Source: Naganishia liquefaciens
Taxonomy: Eukaryota; Basidiomycota; Tremellomycetes; Filobasidiales; Filobasidiaceae
Length of the DNA: 64,000 bases
NCBI GenBank assembly: GCA_013423385.1
Contig: BLZA01000030.1
Span: 1,505,168 to 1,569,167, forward strand
Direction: 5' to 3'
Part shown: piece by piece, positions 8,250 through 17,224 of the stretch
Layout of the letters: every line of letters starts with the position of its first letter
How positions within the stretch are numbered: the first letter of the stretch is position 1
Program-made: the position numbers and the translations under genes
Notes under the pieces: model-generated
What the model was told of the DNA's origin: nothing
Database searches by the model: none
Seen by the model: only the letters and a program-made list of their open reading frames with translations

Positions 8250-10122
8250 CTACAGACTTGTACTGTACACCCTGCGCCACCACTGTCTACGCCTTGTCAC
8301 GTGAATTGGCACTGCTCCCTCCGGAATCCTAACCACGACCGGCGACGGCCTCGCGTTCTCCCAGACATCATCACAGTAGACCCATCCAGCCTCATCACAC
8401 TCGCTCGTACTCCAGTCCGCTGCAAGATCAACGCGCCACTCTTCGCCCGGGACAAAACTCCAACCGGGAACGAGACTGAGGGCGACGCGGCCGTCCGAGG
8501 CGGCGGGAGGGGAGTTATTGACAGCCGGGAGGCCTTCGGACCAGAGCGACAACGTGGGATTGCGCGGTAAGACCCGGACCCAGGGTCTCCGTTCCGAGGA
8601 TTTGAGGAAACGTGAAGACCATGCGGTTTCCGGCGGGACGAGCATATCCTGCGCATTCCCAGCATCCGCGTCTGTCGACGCCTGCTTGAGCGGCTCGGAC
8701 TTCCAGGCCGGATCCAGGCGTTCATTCTCCCATACGCGTACCTCACGAATCTCGCTTTGAGCGATGGCGTCATCCAGTCGGTCTGTGAGAACCCATCGCT
8801 CGGCTTTGGCGCGCCATTGTTTGAGGCGCGACGGGCGAAGGAAGCCTTGACTCCAGAGAGCGGCGTAGACGAATGCCGGATGGAAGACGACTGGAGGGAG
8901 AATACCGAGAGGAAGAAGCAAGAAAGGGATCGCGCCAGAAGGCAGGATCGGAAGGAAGAGAGTTGGTGGCAGGAGCAGCATTAGAATGTGAGTTGCCGAT
9001 AGCGGGAATGTTGTCGGTGGCGGCGAGGTCGTGGCGATATTCGGCGAGATCATTGTCAAATACGGCAAGATGCCGTCATAGATGTCCGAACTATCTGACG
9101 TGAGATTCCATCAACAACATGGCATACTGTACTCACGTCAGTCCCATCAAGTTCTGGATTCCCTGGAGATTCATGTAGTAGTCCACACCCGATTCCGGGA
9201 CGCCCGCGGATGCTGCCGGAATGATGGTGCCATCACTATCAACAGTACTTCCGTGTGCTTTGCCCTCGCTGCCTTGATCGCCTACATCTCCTCGAGCGGC
9301 CGGATTTGTTGCGGGATCAATGTTGGCTGTTAACGATGCGCCGATGCTTCCTGCGAGCGGATTCGAGAGCATGGACTTGGGAGCCGGTACAGCCGTCGGG
9401 AGTGAAGAAGGATTAGACAGGGTTGGATGTGCCTTCTCGTATTGATGCAGAAGGATGAGGATCAATGCCGCCGATGGGACGCATAGTAGGAGCCGTGGAT
9501 AAAAGGCTGAAAGGCATGAGGATTCAGGGATTCGAGGTCGCCGAGAAGACTCACAGATCATAGTCCAACACATGATCCACGTCCAAGTCCACAGCGGCTT
9601 CCTCCAAAACATGACCTCTTCAACCCGATCCATCGTCCAAAAGAGGAATCCCACGCGAGCCACGAAACGTCGAAAGTTATTTGTCATGTTGGGCAAGCTC
9701 AGTCCCTCTCTCTGCGAAGAAAGCATTCGTATCTTTCCGGGTGCTCCGGGATGGGTCGATGTCGGGGACGACTTGTTCGGTATCGAAGATGGAAGGATGC
9801 TTGATAAGAACATGTCCGCTACACCGCCTGACAATGCTCCAGCCGTAAAGCTTGACGCGGAAGGCATAGATCCTGTGCCTTCTCGCGGAACCGACTTCTT
9901 GCCATTGTTCGCTGCTACTACCGTCGCCGGTGGGGGGAAGGACGCGAGTCTCGACCGGTGCTTCGTATCCTGCGCATGTGAGTCCTGGACGTCGAGATTG
10001 GGATTGCCCGCTGTTGATTGACCCTCGTCGGCAGACGGTGGCGGTATGCGGATCGCGCTCGGCGGGATCTGGGCGAAGGCGAGGAGAAAGTCTCGCTCGA
10101 TTTTCAAGGGGTCCGAGGGCAT
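8250..10122 (-). CDS. Peroxisomal membrane peroxin of the Pex23/24/30 class (dysferlin domain)
   Basis: Three exons (9555-10122, 9137-9506, 8250-9090, transcribed right to left) give 592 residues. The 48-nt first intron is a multiple of three and open, so plain ORF calling reads through it. The N-terminal 140 residues are disordered. Then come several membrane segments: around the first junction (FWTMDRVEEVMFWRKPLWTW), just after it (LLLCVPSAALILILLHQY), and a paired hydrophobic stretch after the second junction (LMLLLPPTLFLPILPSGAIPFL is the core). The C-terminus carries a dysferlin-type module: GWSFVPGEEWRVD, a WSTSECDEAGWVY segment, and the terminal TRRRQWWRR. This layout matches fungal Pex24/Pex30-type ER-peroxisome proteins that regulate peroxisome number. 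Which paralog it is cannot be settled here. Confidence 0.85.
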
Positions 10123-10891
10123 GGCTGGATGGCTGGATGGCGTGAAGGTGATTGAAAGGGAACAGAGCAGACTGCGTCAACTGAAATGGCCGCTCGTCTG
10201 ACTTTGAGTAACCGGCGATGACGAATGACGCTCGATCGCTCCGTCGCGCTTGCTCGCCATTGCGGGCCTGACGGACCTCCCCTGCACCTTCTCAGCCTAG
10301 CGAGTCTGCAATTCTTGAGCCGGCTTGGAGATGAGACCGCTGCTCATGCGTCACGGTTGGTTCTTGTCATTGCATCTCCAGGACTTCGGGACAAAGACTC
10401 GCGTTTCCCTGACGATTCGCCGCAAACGTAATTGGACCATTTATTGCCTTTTGACAGAGGCAACCCACTAAACTAAAGGGAAAGCAGAGGACTAAGGGAG
10501 TTTGAAAGACCGGTGATGAAGGAAAGGGCAGGAAACACGAAAGGTCTCCAGGCTGATAGGGCCTTTGTGTATACTGGCAGACAGCACCGATTGAGGGAGC
10601 GATGTTCGGTCCACGAAAAGAAATTCCAGCAAACCTCTACGGGTTTTCTTGAGCGACGCCACGAATCTCAAAATTCTACTTCTGCTTCAAATTGACTGCA
10701 AAAGAAGGGAGCCAGGGGGCGCTGTACTGGCGTGGTCCAGACCAGACCAGTGCGGGTTTCAGCTCCGAGACCCCGGCTTCTCGTCGACACCACTCCTAAT
10801 CAATAAAAGATAGTAAGAACGATGATTAGCGGGGCGAATCCGCTCATACAACCGTTTATCTGGTTCGAGGGTTTCCATCCATCACCAGGTC
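10123..10891. other. Intergenic region between peroxin and CYSTM genes
   Basis: This 769-bp stretch holds the promoter of the peroxin gene (-) and the 3' flank of the CYSTM gene (-). Short ORFs are present but none has recognisable content. A small direct repeat, CCAGACCAGACCAG, lies near 10736-10752. Confidence 0.45.
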
Positions 10892-11496
10892 TTAGAACAT
10901 CATGTCGCAACACATTTCTTCGGCTACACGCCACGAAGGGAAGAATCAGATGGACGTCAGATACATGAAGGATCGTATCGCACGCACCGCAACAACAGCA
11001 TAGCGCACCGGCGCAACATGCCAAACATCCCGACCCGCCACCTGACGACTTCTGCGGAGCTTGTTGAACCATGATCGGCTGGGCTTGTTGCGGAGGGTAG
11101 CTGCAGGAGCCGAGCAAATTAGCGGTTAGTATCTCGAGCCCTTCGTCATACGTACTATTGCTCTGCCAGGAAAGAACGCGAAGATGCAAGATCGCATCGT
11201 CAACTTGCTCTATCATTCCCCGTAAGAATTCACTTACGACCAGGTTGAGCATACGCCTGTTGCGGCTGCGGCGGATAGTATCCCCCGCCCTGCTGCATCG
11301 GTGGTCCTCCGTAACCACCCTGCATCGGCGGTCCGCCGTAGCCCTGTCCCTGAGGTGGTCCGCCGTAGCCTCCCTGGTTTTGGTAGTACTGCGTGTCGGG
11401 TTTGCGAGACGTGAAGGGTTTGAGAAGAGAGAAGCGGAGACGGTTGAGTGTGGTGGTTGGTGCGAGAGAGTCGAGGGTGGAGAGGGAGTCGTTCAT
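10892..11496 (-). CDS. CYSTM (cysteine-rich transmembrane module) protein with a 7-nt microexon
   Basis: Four exons join in perfect frame: 11238-11496 (259 nt), 11156-11162 (7 nt), 10988-11100 (113 nt) and 10892-10923 (32 nt), 411 nt in all, giving 136 residues. The middle is Gln/Gly/Pro/Tyr-rich with repeated GGYGGPP units. The C-terminus is a classic CYSTM tail: GCLACCAGALCCCCAEE followed by MCCDMMF. The ALCCCC/AEE junction exists only after the last intron (GTGCGT..TGTAG) is removed, and the tail would otherwise run on into nonsense. CYSTM proteins are short tail-anchored membrane proteins, usually at the plasma membrane, linked to stress and metal tolerance. The long N-terminal part before the Gly/Pro repeats may mean that the true start is further in. 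Confidence 0.85.
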
Positions 11497-12995: not shown

Positions 12996-13566
12996 CTACA
13001 ATGCTGCGATGGCTTCGATCTCGACGGAGATGCCGCTGCCGCAGAATATCGTCAGCTAAACTCGATCAATATTTGCAGTCATCTCAACTCACGCGACGGG
13101 AAGGTTTCCGACTTCAAAGGCAGATCGAGCCGGCTTGGGGTCGGGAATCATGGCGTTGTAGACTTCGTTCATGTTGGCAAAGTCGTTGATGTCTGAGAAT
13201 GGATACTGGTGAGGACAATAAACGTTATGGGTCTAGAGAGGATGACTTACCTTGCATCAAGACCGTTACCTTCAGAACCCTCGACCAGTCCGTGCCGGCC
13301 TCTTTCAAGACCGCAGCGACCTTCTCGATACAGACCGCTGTTTCATTCTTGATACCTCCCGGAACGACCGTATTATTAACGACAGGTACCTGTCCACTGA
13401 CAAAGACGAGGTTACCGAAGCTGGTACCGCCAGACAAGGTCTTGCCGACGGATCCGAGACGGGTGATGTCGGAGTTTCGCTCAGCGAGGGAGCTGGAGGT
13501 GCTAGAGAGCGGGGAGGCGCTAGCAAGTGCGGCAAGGGTTGCGAGGAGACCAAAGTTGAACAGCAT
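12996..13566 (-). CDS. Secreted RidA/YjgF-like imine deaminase
   Basis: Exons 13251-13566, 13093-13192 and 12996-13035 join with GTAAGT..TCAG and GTGAGT..GGCAG introns into 151 residues. Residues 1-18 form a signal peptide (MLFNFGLLATLAALASAS). The RidA fold follows, with GNLVFVSGQVP, the helix ETAVCIEKVAAVLKEAG, the strand VLKVTVLM, DINDFANMNEVYN, and PKPARSAFEVGNLP ending in VEIEAIA. The Arg of PARS and the Glu of VEIEA, which bind substrate and water in RidA, are present. The usual GPYSQA loop with its Tyr is replaced by KTLSGGTSF. Two N-glycosylation sequons (NNT, NET) fit passage through the ER. RidA enzymes hydrolyse 2-imino acids to 2-keto acids and ammonia. A divergent gene for an L-amino acid oxidase, which makes such imino acids, lies about 1 kb away. 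Confidence 0.9.
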
Positions 13567-13668
13567 GGTGTTGGAGGCAATGAGGATGGGGTGATGTATG
13601 CGGTTTGGTGGCTGGATCAGTGAAATTGCTTTTCTTTACCTGGGAAGCGGTCGTTGGACAAAGTGCTG

Positions 13669-13679
13669 GCCTTTATACC
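13669..13679 (-). promoter_or_regulatory. TATA box of the RidA-like gene
   Basis: On the minus strand the sequence GGTATAAAGGCCAGC lies about 105-115 nt before the RidA-like ATG, a plausible TATA position. Confidence 0.55.
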
Positions 13680-14552
13680 TCGATTCAACGATGAACGCGG
13701 AAAGAATTTTTACCGCTTCCGGACAGTCTCGTTGTCGGGGCGAATTCCTTCATGCTCCCCAGAGCTCGCCTCAGCAGAGTATTCTGCAGTCGTTACCAAT
13801 CTTCGGATGGGACTGGTTGCCAATCCGTCGACTTGATCTTGGCATGGCCATCCTTATCTCGACTTGCTTCGCATGACAAAGTTCGCAGACGGCTCATCAG
13901 CTTGAGCGTTCTTCGGGGCCCGCCTTCCGTCCTGAATCCATGCCTAGTCCAGCGACTGCGCCGTGTTCGAATGCCCGAATCCCGGGATTCATGCGGACCT
14001 CATGCCAGCTACATCGGTATTCAACAATTGACCTATCTCGGAGAAACCGAACTTGGCCTTGGCAAGCCACGTTGCAATAAGCGCGCGACCGAGGCGAGCG
14101 AGAGATAAGGTTCCGCTGAGCGACCTCATGATGGTATGTTGCGCTATCGTCTCGCTCGATTGCAAGTCGTATCAGACCTCGACCCCGAGCGCTTGCGGCG
14201 CCTGTACATCCCGGTCCGTCGACTCGGTGCTCGCCGTTATCTATCACCACAAGTCCAGTCGCGGCTTTGGTTACAGCGAGATGACAGATACCCCGGATAC
14301 ATGGGTGCACTGGATGGCAGAACTCTCGGGCCGCGCGCAGGAGATCATTCGGATTACAACGATCGGGTCAATGATCTGACCAATGGGAACGGAAGGAGGG
14401 TGTGAAGCAGGAGATGAAGGGATCAGATAGGATCTCATCGGCTGGGACCGCTGAACGCACCGCATCCGGAGCACCAACGGTGGTTTCCCGAAGCAGTGTC
14501 CGCTGATATGGGGAATTTGGAATGCTTGCGCAACATTCCGTGCAGACTTCCA

Positions 14553-14568
14553 GGTATTTAAAGGCTGG
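14553..14568 (+). promoter_or_regulatory. TATA-like box of the L-amino acid oxidase gene
   Basis: GGTATTTAAAGGCTGGC lies about 65-75 nt before the oxidase ATG. It resembles the divergent RidA promoter element apart from two extra T and one or two substitutions. Confidence 0.5.
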
Positions 14569-14627
14569 CATCCTATTCTCGAACGGTCTGACCTCTCCTT
14601 TGTCATCATCATCCTCCACAGACGAAC

Positions 14628-17224
14628 ATGAAAGACTCCAAAATCATTCTGCCGCTCTCGCTCCTGATCGCCGGAGGCAAGCTTGCCAAGGCCTCGCCAA
14701 CGCCTTTACCTTCCATCAGCTTTGTCAAGTGAGTAGCGGCTGGGCTTGACTGAAGTTCTACTAACTCTTCGACTTTCAGCCCGACTGGTGTTCAACGAGG
14801 TGGAGCGCACAACTTCCACATCTCGTACGATCGTCCTGAATCCTTGGCCGGTGACATCGTCTTCGTTTACGGAGACTGTGGTATCGATCACCACTCGAAG
14901 GCACACCATGAAGTCGGTCGATTGGTGACAAATAGATACGCTGCTGATGACATGCCGTGAGTTCATCGCGTGCGTATACTTGACTCCGAGCTCACGTACT
15001 TTGGACTCAGAACCCGGTTCGTCTGGATCACCCCCGAAGACGCACCGACCAAAGGATGCTTGCACGCCTTCTCGGATCTGGGCGTCGTCGGCTCCTCTGA
15101 AGCCATCGAGATCACCCACGATAACCTCGCCAAGCGAAACACCTTGTCGTCCATCAATGATCCTTACGGTGCATGGTTTGACGGTGTCGCCTATCTCCAG
15201 GCCAAGGAGCCGGATGCGGCATTCGTTGCCGGTAAAAAGGACCAAAAGATCGGTATCGTGGGTGGTGGTATGTCGGGTCTCATGTCGGCACTCTTGTTGG
15301 ATTCTGTTGGCATCCACAACTGGGAGATCTCGGAAAGTTCTCACCGAATCGGAGGGTATGTCTCGTTCTTTCGCAAGAACATTGCACGTTGCTAATGCTA
15401 CATGGCTTCGTTTAGACGACTTCATACGGCTTACCTCAATGGAACGGCGCCTGAAGATTATCAGTACCAGGAGATGGGGTGAGCCAAACAGCCTTTAGGG
15501 CAGCAAAATTGTCTCTGACACGAGCATCCGCAGTCCTATGCGATTCCCCGTCAGCCTATCCTACACTGGAACCAACGAGACTCTCGAGATCCAAGACCAC
15601 AAGCTTGTCTTCCAGCTCGCCGATGTTTTGAACGAGATGAACAAGGGCAAAGACCCCAAGCTTCAGGTCAAGTTTATCGAATGGATCCAGTCCAACCCCA
15701 AGTAGGTCAACCTTCCAGTTCCTTCATGGCCATCGCTAACATTACCTCTCCAGCACCTACGTTTATAACAACGGCCTTCGAAACCCGGACGGCACTGTTC
15801 CTCGGCGAAGCCAGTACGCTGCGCTCCTCGCCAATGCCACATCGGGCGTTCCTGCAGTTGAACCCCCCGAGAAGCAAGAGGCTGCTGAAGAAGCGCTTGA
15901 GCACTTCATTGATTACACTGACAAGTATGAGCTTTCTGCGAAGAATATCTTCAAGGCACACAAGCAAGCCATCGGTATGTCTACTCTCACGAAGAATGCA
16001 TGACATCGGCTGACAGCATGGCACAATTTCGTCTTCAGAGGATGGTTTGCACAGCTTCTCCGAAGTTTCGTTCTTGAGGTCGCAAGGCTTGGGCTGGAAC
16101 GAGACGTCGGCTGTCGGAGGTACTGGTAAGCAGCGAGACGAGACTGATCGGTTTTGATCGCTGAGATATCAACACCTCAGGCACATTATGGGACGAGATC
16201 TACGATGGTGTCTACTTCTCTGCAACCCAGTGGAAGACTATCGACAAGGGACTCACCCGATTGGCCGAGGCCTTCCATCCCATTGTCGACGGCAAGATCA
16301 CCTACGGCAGGAGGATCAACAAGTTGAGCTATGACGAGAAGACCAAGAAGACGTCAGTCAGCTGGTACGAGCACGAGACCAAGAGCACGGAAAGCAAGAC
16401 CTACGACAAGACCATTGTGGCTGTACCTTTCTCCGTTGCCCGACTGTGGCGATTGCCCAGCTTCAATTCAGTCATCAAAGAGGCCATCACCGGCCTAGGT
16501 TACTCTTACGCATGCAAGGTCTCTGTAAGTACATCGTGTCCTCTTCCGCGTTGTCCATAGCTAACATGGTCTTTCAGCTCCTTTACAAGACCCGATTCTG
16601 GGAACACATTGAGCAGCCCATCTTCGGAGGTTGCGGCTCCACAGACTTGCCTGGAATTGGATCCGTTTGCTACCCCGCTTACAACATCAACGGTACCGGT
16701 CCGGGCGCTCTGCTTGCCAGTTACACCACCCCTGTCGGACCTTCCCTCTCTGCCCTGTCGGAAGCCGACCACGTCGGCATGGTTGTCGAAGCCATGAACG
16801 AGATCCACGGAGAAATCGCCGCCGAGCAGTACACTGGCAAGTACGACAGGATCTGTTGGGGTCTCGACCCCCATCAGGCAGGCTCTTGGGCCTCTCCCTA
16901 CACCGGCCAGCACGAGCGATACATGCCTGAATACCACAAGACTCACTTGAACCACATCTTGTAAGCAGCATTGTGTCAGTTATTTTCCGCTCTTCTAACC
17001 GCTCATTCGTTACAGCGTCGGCGAGCACACCAGCGTTAACCACGCCTGGATCTTCTCGGCTTTGGAGAGTGCTACTCGAGGTGTTGTCCAGGCCCTCCTG
17101 GATGACGGTCTCGTTGACGAAGCCAAGGAAGTGAGTTGCTGAGTTTCCTGAGATCCTGGACTTGTGCTCATTACTCTTGCGCCAGATCGTCAACAAGTGG
17201 ATGGCACGATGGATCTCCGTCTAA
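14628..17224 (+). CDS. Secreted FAD-dependent L-amino acid oxidase
   Basis: Eleven exons (14628-14728, 14780-14956, 15011-15355, 15416-15478, 15534-15701, 15754-15974, 16039-16125, 16181-16524, 16578-16960, 17016-17130, 17186-17224) give 680 residues with frame kept at every junction. The N-terminus is a signal peptide (MKDSKIILPLSLLIAGGKLA). The dinucleotide-binding motif is KIGIVGGGMSGL followed by ESSHRIGGR, the RxGGR signature of amine oxidases. The region QEMGPMRFP matches the substrate-side loop of LAAOs, and the C-terminal VGEHTS..WIFSALESATRG is the second FAD-binding segment. At least five N-glycosylation sequons are present. It should oxidise L-amino acids to imino acids with release of H2O2, outside the cell. 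The nearest neighbour upstream is a divergent secreted RidA-like gene. Confidence 0.93.

Follow-up and report, generated by a model that had tools for sequence, protein, structure and literature searches.

Does a fungus that secretes an L-amino acid oxidase (LAAO) also export a RidA protein to deal with the imines made by this oxidase? The question is raised by a locus of Naganishia liquefaciens (Filobasidiales), analyzed here in a window of 64,000 nucleotides, in which a gene for a RidA-fold protein and a gene for a secreted-type LAAO dependent on flavin adenine dinucleotide (FAD) adjoin each other. RidA has mostly been studied as an intracellular metabolite-repair enzyme, and the LAAO family generates H2O2. 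We consider it reasonably probable that the two genes encode a fungal two-step module for the extracellular deamination of amino acids. In the first step, the secreted oxidase would convert external L-amino acids to 2-imino acids and H2O2. In the second, the neighbouring RidA, exported via the endoplasmic reticulum (ER) and probably N-glycosylated, would hydrolyse the imino acid to the keto acid and ammonium, so that nitrogen would be released rapidly and the reactive imine would not linger beside the source of H2O2. The divergent layout and GATA-type sites between the genes could provide joint induction under nitrogen limitation. This proposal is built on computed features, namely the gene models, the RidA fold, signal-like starts, glycosylation sequons, an essential arginine and recurrent pairing; from these we infer that the proteins are really secreted and glycosylated, that the window RidA hydrolyses imines, that the two genes are co-regulated, and what their physiological role would be. 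The chemistry has a precedent in Salmonella, where RidA and Rid2 hydrolyse imines produced by LAAO, and Rid genes are known to cluster with FAD amine oxidases (PMC4433059).

The gene pair

Gene models were obtained by in-house splicing and compared with public proteins. The RidA gene, NliqN6_5114, lies on the minus strand (12996..13566) with three exons (13566-13251, 13192-13093 and 13035-12996) and encodes 151 amino acids, identical to the public protein P0001. The oxidase gene, NliqN6_5115, is located on the plus strand (14628..17224), where 11 exons separated by 10 introns of 51-64 bp each encode 680 amino acids identical to public P0121; for both models the identity of 100% extends over the full length. 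The consecutive tags belong to divergent genes whose start codons are 1,061 bp apart. RidA scored 103.7 bits against PF01042 of the Rid/YjgF/UK114 superfamily (cut-off 27.3), and residues 180-653 of the oxidase scored 139.1 bits against PF01593, the flavin amine oxidoreductase family (cut-off 19.8). Gene models, Pfam and public matches thus agree with an earlier preliminary description of the locus, made from the letters of the DNA, which had claimed a head-to-head pair of RidA-fold and FAD LAAO genes and whose limits (12996..17224) coincide with the outer ends of the two genes.

The nearest solved structures of the oxidase are L-lysine oxidase (E 1.7e-28) and several L-amino acid oxidases. 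Moreover, G177, G179 and G182 of a GxGxxG sequence and R232 of a GPMRFP sequence are unchanged across 20 rows of the family; we take the former to be the dinucleotide motif and the latter to be the substrate-binding arginine. The predicted function of the oxidase is the oxidation of L-amino acids with release of H2O2. A hidden gene between RidA and the oxidase was rejected, as no Pfam domain was found in the four open stretches of the intergenic region 13567..14627.

Predicted export and glycosylation

Both proteins begin with a signal-like stretch, as called by our own rule of thumb for N-termini. In RidA the approximate signal peptide comprises residues 1-19 (13510..13566, minus strand) with a hydrophobic core, and in the oxidase residues 1-22 (14628..14693, plus strand); the cleavage sites are putative in both. 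Since residues 1-25 of RidA contain neither lysine nor arginine, a mitochondrial presequence was rejected. The signal stretch of RidA is followed by a Ser-rich segment up to Arg30, a residue unchanged in all 10 rows of one alignment (A1); the site is dibasic in five of these rows, including the non-fungal P0089, and monobasic in N. liquefaciens. The Ser-rich segment ending at Arg30 suggests a possible pro-segment.

The relatives used here come from listings of the best matches, which for RidA were the best 120 of 395 and 120 of 1,527, and for the oxidase the best 120 of 436. From the RidA listings 75 fungal rows were picked, of which two with truncated starts were set aside and 73 full-length ones kept. 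For comparison we used 47 rows, P0070-P0120 minus four; two of them are named bacterial and the remainder are presumed prokaryotic. Of the four left out, two pass the signal rule: P0089, whose start is export-like and which does not look fungal, and P0076, a fragment of fungal appearance in which the loop sequon described below is present as well. A signal-like start was found in 73/73 chosen fungal rows versus 0/47 presumed prokaryotic rows. The preliminary description had assigned signal peptides to both proteins and had named an intracellular RidA product as a point that would speak against its proposal; the N-termini of the pair and of the chosen fungal rows lean to export, which holds as a prediction by the rule of thumb.

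As that description had also claimed, both proteins carry several N-glycosylation sequons, two in RidA and five in LAAO. The first RidA sequon, NNT at N64 (codon 13375..13377, minus strand), is situated in a loop, and a sequon around this position was present in all 73 chosen fungal rows versus none of the 47 presumed prokaryotic ones. The second, NET at N74 (codon 13345..13347, minus strand), occurs in 18 of the 73 fungal rows and 0/47 others. Wider counts gave a similar separation. In rows P0001-P0069 the loop sequon was found in 65/69 and the signal rule was passed by 59/69; the sequon is missing in the fungal-looking P0006 and P0028 and in P0068 and P0069, which look prokaryotic, and the failures of the signal rule are mostly extended starts. 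Of the 118 rows made up of P0048 and P0241-P0357, 104 reach across the loop and 96 of these have the sequon; the signal rule was passed by 72/118, most failures being pieces without a true start. In P0070-P0120 the corresponding counts were 1/51 and 2/51. RidA is probably N-glycosylated after a predicted entry into the ER.

For the oxidase, the signal rule was passed by the window protein, by 85 of the 120 listed rows and by 10 of the 14 paired proteins, the window included. Two of the four paired oxidases that fail are truncated models; among all listed oxidases the failures are partly truncated models and partly due to charged residues in the core.

N-terminal signals and sequons would also be compatible with a destination in the ER, the vacuole or the wall instead of the medium, so that the pair would be a module of the secretory pathway and not truly extracellular. 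We regard this as highly improbable, as the 151-aa RidA has no transmembrane segment or retention signal evident by eye.

Fold and active site of RidA

The AlphaFold2 model of RidA had a mean pLDDT of 87.2 and a pTM of 0.76, and its comparison with solved RidA structures yielded 50 chains shown, with TM scores normalised to the target of 0.74-0.90. The equivalent of Arg105, a residue essential to catalysis of imine hydrolysis, is R128 (codon 13125..13127, minus strand), and this position is arginine in 73/73 fungal and 47/47 comparison rows. The equivalent of Asn88 is conserved in all 73 chosen fungal rows and that of Glu120 in 70 of them, and at the position of Ser30 there is Ser in 64 rows and Ala in nine. 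In its fold and in the equivalents of Arg105, Asn88 and Glu120 the protein therefore resembles archetypal RidA, such as Salmonella RidA and yeast Hmf1/Mmf1. In Salmonella enterica RidA, Arg105 was shown to be essential, and changes of Tyr17 (to Ala) and Glu120 had little effect (PMC4433059).

A role other than imine hydrolysis is offered by the chaperone activity of RidA. E. coli RidA turns into a chaperone upon N-chlorination by HOCl (PMC4284807), and a secreted RidA could accordingly be a protectant, i.e. an oxidation-activated holdase that shields the oxidase and the proteins of the wall in surroundings rich in the H2O2 that an oxidase of this family would produce. The activators given in the accessible part of that study are HOCl or chloramines, however, and H2O2 is not named there; furthermore, a chaperone function leaves the conserved imine-binding arginine unexplained. 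We consider this explanation decidedly improbable.

Pairing in other fungi

The preliminary description had suggested looking for conserved adjacency of the two families in relatives, and pairing was indeed found to recur. The listings give for every protein the length of its longest contig and in many cases a locus tag. Each cluster is represented by a single named member, so that an organism counts as shared by the listings when it is named in both. As a sign of pairing we took the presence of both proteins on a contig of equal size, which is indirect; statements on adjacency rest on consecutive tags. The comparable set comprised 15 named organisms in both the RidA and the oxidase listing, excluding the window species and omitting Lithohypha guttulata, whose RidA and oxidase carry tags of different series. 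Among the matches listed, RidA and the oxidase were on an equal-sized contig in 13 of these 15 organisms: Naganishia vaughanmartiniae, N. cerealis, Filobasidium floriforme, Rhinocladiella mackenziei, Lojkania enalia, Polyplosphaeria fusca, Clohesyomyces aquaticus, Corynespora cassiicola, Sporormia fimetaria, Dendryphion nanum, Paramyrothecium foliicola, Cephalotrichum gorgonifer and Sarocladium strictum. We take these organisms to represent the Filobasidiales and three classes of Pezizomycotina. Consecutive tags were found in four of them, namely N. vaughanmartiniae (001246/001247), N. cerealis (008942/008943), R. mackenziei (06048/06049) and S. strictum (8828/8827); divergent orientation is known for the window pair only. 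A chance neighbourhood was rejected because of the shared contig sizes in 13/15 organisms, in six of which the contig in question measures 73-386 kb.

Two metagenome contig sizes (25,029 and 40,005) occur in both listings as well. In P. foliicola there are two RidA-type proteins, P0294 and P0353, for which the contig size equals that of the oxidase; one has a signal-like start and the other, as modelled, does not.

Intergenic region and regulation

The region between the two start codons (13567..14627, 1,061 bp) contains seven HGATAR sites versus a mean of 2.3 in shuffled sequences. Seven sites were attained by 0.5% of 1,000 shuffles, and when the window was divided into 630 overlapping tiles, 0.8% of these attained as many; HGATAR was the best of four patterns tried, with 2.6% for GATAR, 18% for GATAA and CTGATAA absent. 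In Aspergillus the oxidase LaoA was described as an areA-dependent, nitrogen-scavenging enzyme (PMC2526178). By analogy, the GATA-type sites of the window are suggestive of nitrogen control by a GATA factor.

Weighing the proposed extracellular deamination module

Several points weigh against an extracellular deamination module. Free imino acids hydrolyse spontaneously in water, so the gain from RidA may be small. The position of Tyr17 holds Leu in 72/73 chosen fungal rows, an equivalence that comes from a separate alignment (A2), as the prokaryotic rows are gapped at that column in the alignment of the 73 and 47 rows; the six non-fungal rows of A2 have Tyr in four cases, Leu in one and Phe in one. 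With 100 bits the window RidA also stays under the cut-off of 106.25 for TIGR00004, the model of archetypal RidA, as do two relatives scored alongside. With regard to the pairing, nine of the 13 paired organisms are counted on equal contig size alone, without established adjacency, and in Stachybotrys chlorohalonatus and S. elegans the two proteins are on different contigs. Among the 120 matches listed, the Tremellales Dioszegia and Papiliotrema have RidA and no oxidase, and Aspergillus and Penicillium have the oxidase and no such RidA. These absences are weak, because they are drawn from the best 120 matches with one named member per cluster. In A. fumigatus, the LaoA gene AFUA_7G06810 is not close to two listed L-PSP tags of unspecified type, 2G17470 and 7G02340 (PMC8743625).

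As the families are listed apart in some fungi, RidA and the oxidase can probably exist separately. The two-step secreted system proposed in the preliminary description is partly supported: it has gained from the recurrent pairing and the signal-like starts, while the organisms in which the families are listed apart speak against a tight coupling. Since its score is just below the TIGR00004 cut-off, we set the window RidA as its own subfamily within Rid, a placement by sequence, rather than as archetypal RidA; unlike the latter, this subfamily shows a signal-like start, the loop sequon and the change of Tyr17 to Leu.

The loss of Tyr17 and the recurrence of the pair among the matches listed would also fit a RidA that serves an extracellular LAAO complex as a subunit, for structure or stability, with its binding mattering more than its own catalysis. 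Such an arrangement has been described for Chlamydomonas, as a periplasmic complex in which LAAO is the M-alpha component and a RidA without catalytic function is M-beta (PMC5053998). In the fungal rows, however, the essential Arg is retained in every case and the Glu120 equivalent in nearly all, which suggests selection for catalysis, and the Aspergillus oxidase manages without such a RidA among the matches listed. A purely structural role is therefore unlikely in our view.

Comparison with known systems

The extracellular deamination module that we propose has counterparts outside the fungi. Chlamydomonas reinhardtii possesses a LAO1-LAO2/RIDA gene cluster, whose products are drawn acting in the periplasm on external amino acids (PMC10805672), and LAO1 is induced by nitrogen limitation (PMC7412212). 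Here, too, a eukaryote has clustered genes for a putative RidA and for an LAAO that is located outside the cell or in the periplasm, a likeness in arrangement that does not involve a comparison of sequences. The premise of the preliminary description, which places the known RidA proteins of eukaryotes in the cytosol or mitochondria, overlooks LAO2/RIDA, depicted next to LAO1 in the periplasm (PMC10805672). Unlike the fungal pair, the cluster belongs to a green alga, and glycosylation is not mentioned in the accessible parts of the two papers (PMC10805672, PMC7412212). In Gluconacetobacter diazotrophicus, the lao-cccA-ridA genes combine LAAO, predicted to be exported, with ridA (PMC5053998). 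In contrast to the fungal pair this cluster is bacterial, includes a cytochrome c and is tied to auxin synthesis, and an export of RidA is not mentioned in the part of the article available (PMC5053998). Given these precedents the fungal pair is not categorically new and would work like a known kind of system.

Among fungi, the listed Aspergillus oxidases belong to the same LAAO family as the window oxidase, a likeness that concerns these listed proteins; unlike N. liquefaciens, Aspergillus lacks a secreted-type RidA among the 120 matches listed. The pentosidine oxidase of Sarocladium is also a member of this family and 51% identical to the window oxidase, and its relative in S. strictum has RidA at the next locus tag. 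The name of the pentosidine oxidase is that of a database entry, and it was not found in our search of open-licence papers. A fungal LAAO-RidA pair was likewise undescribed in the titles and abstract starts of the open-licence papers searched, a body of literature that most subscription journals lie outside of. What seems new, judged from the sequences compared, is a separate RidA subfamily with a signal-like start and a near-universal sequon, in a pair that recurs across fungi. A fungal subfamily beside a secreted-type oxidase offers a directly testable case of extracellular imine repair. It bears on the acquisition of nitrogen from amino acids by fungi, and it supplies natural enzyme pairs for deamination chemistry.

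Evolutionary history

The history of the pair was approached with quick maximum-likelihood trees, which had one support value and gave long-branch warnings among outgroup rows. In the RidA tree 41 fungal-type rows group against eight presumed prokaryotic rows and are split into Tremellomycetes and Pezizomycotina. In the oxidase tree, rooted at the midpoint, the four Filobasidiales form one deep branch apart from 41 other rows. Both trees thus separate basidiomycete from ascomycete sequences. We do not favour a recent acquisition of the oxidase from a lineage inside Pezizomycotina, because the Filobasidiales oxidases form one deep separate branch in this quick tree. The topology fits a pair of old standing as well as a single early transfer of the two genes together. 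We tentatively propose, at somewhat under even chances, that fungi have an ancient extracellular couple, which either arose before the basidiomycetes and ascomycetes carrying it diverged or was passed between them a single time as a whole. In this couple a dedicated RidA subfamily, ER-processed and N-glycosylated, would have evolved to serve the secreted LAAO, perhaps in a complex with it. If this is true, organisms with external deamination would generally need to clear imines outside the cell, and algae, bacteria and fungi would each have come to do so on their own.

Other Rid genes and possibly exported bacterial RidA

The genome contains a canonical RidA on contig C26 (L101, G000:C26:247700-249200) with seven exons and an Arg-rich start with an inner Met. 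This copy, in which GPYxQ (Tyr17 type) and ARSC (Cys107 type) are retained, does not pass the signal rule and by its sequence looks mitochondrial or cytosolic. The window gene would therefore be an apparently exported relative beside an ordinary, intracellular-looking RidA. Two tandem PF01042 genes with one open frame each (L001 and L002, G000:C11:415447-417260) are signal-less and similar to each other. A further PF01042 match was found in a gene on contig C24, which we take to resemble diphthine-ammonia ligase. In the viral contigs searched there was no relative.

In bacteria, the loci L021-L029 contain RidA-like ORFs (open reading frames) with signal- or lipoprotein-like starts by eye, several of them with an early Cys. 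An exported bacterial RidA with a LAAO neighbour is unsupported: no LAAO-like ORF was detected near any of 80 bacterial and archaeal RidA-like loci (E 1e-5, flanks of up to 5 kb), in a search whose fungal profile may overlook remote types. Bacteria may export RidA for other reasons.

These loci, several of them export-like, bear on a last explanation, namely that the secreted fungal RidA acts on other extracellular reactive compounds and that its adjacency to the oxidase reflects shared nitrogen regulation and not a shared substrate. The enrichment of GATA-type sites between the genes and the two Tremellales with RidA relatives and no oxidase among the matches listed are also in line with it. 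The pairing recurs across distant fungi, however, and the chemistry of RidA suits the product of LAAO, which makes this explanation improbable to us compared with the deamination module.

Neighbouring sequences

The surroundings of the pair contain little that can be assigned. A Pfam check of two stretches downstream and one just beyond the oxidase gave no match. Upstream, two open stretches on the minus strand (window 8253-10176) have a weak, below-cut-off match to Pex24p, an integral peroxisomal membrane peroxin, and a Cys-rich stretch on the same strand (window 10803-11492) has a weak, below-cut-off match to CYSTM.

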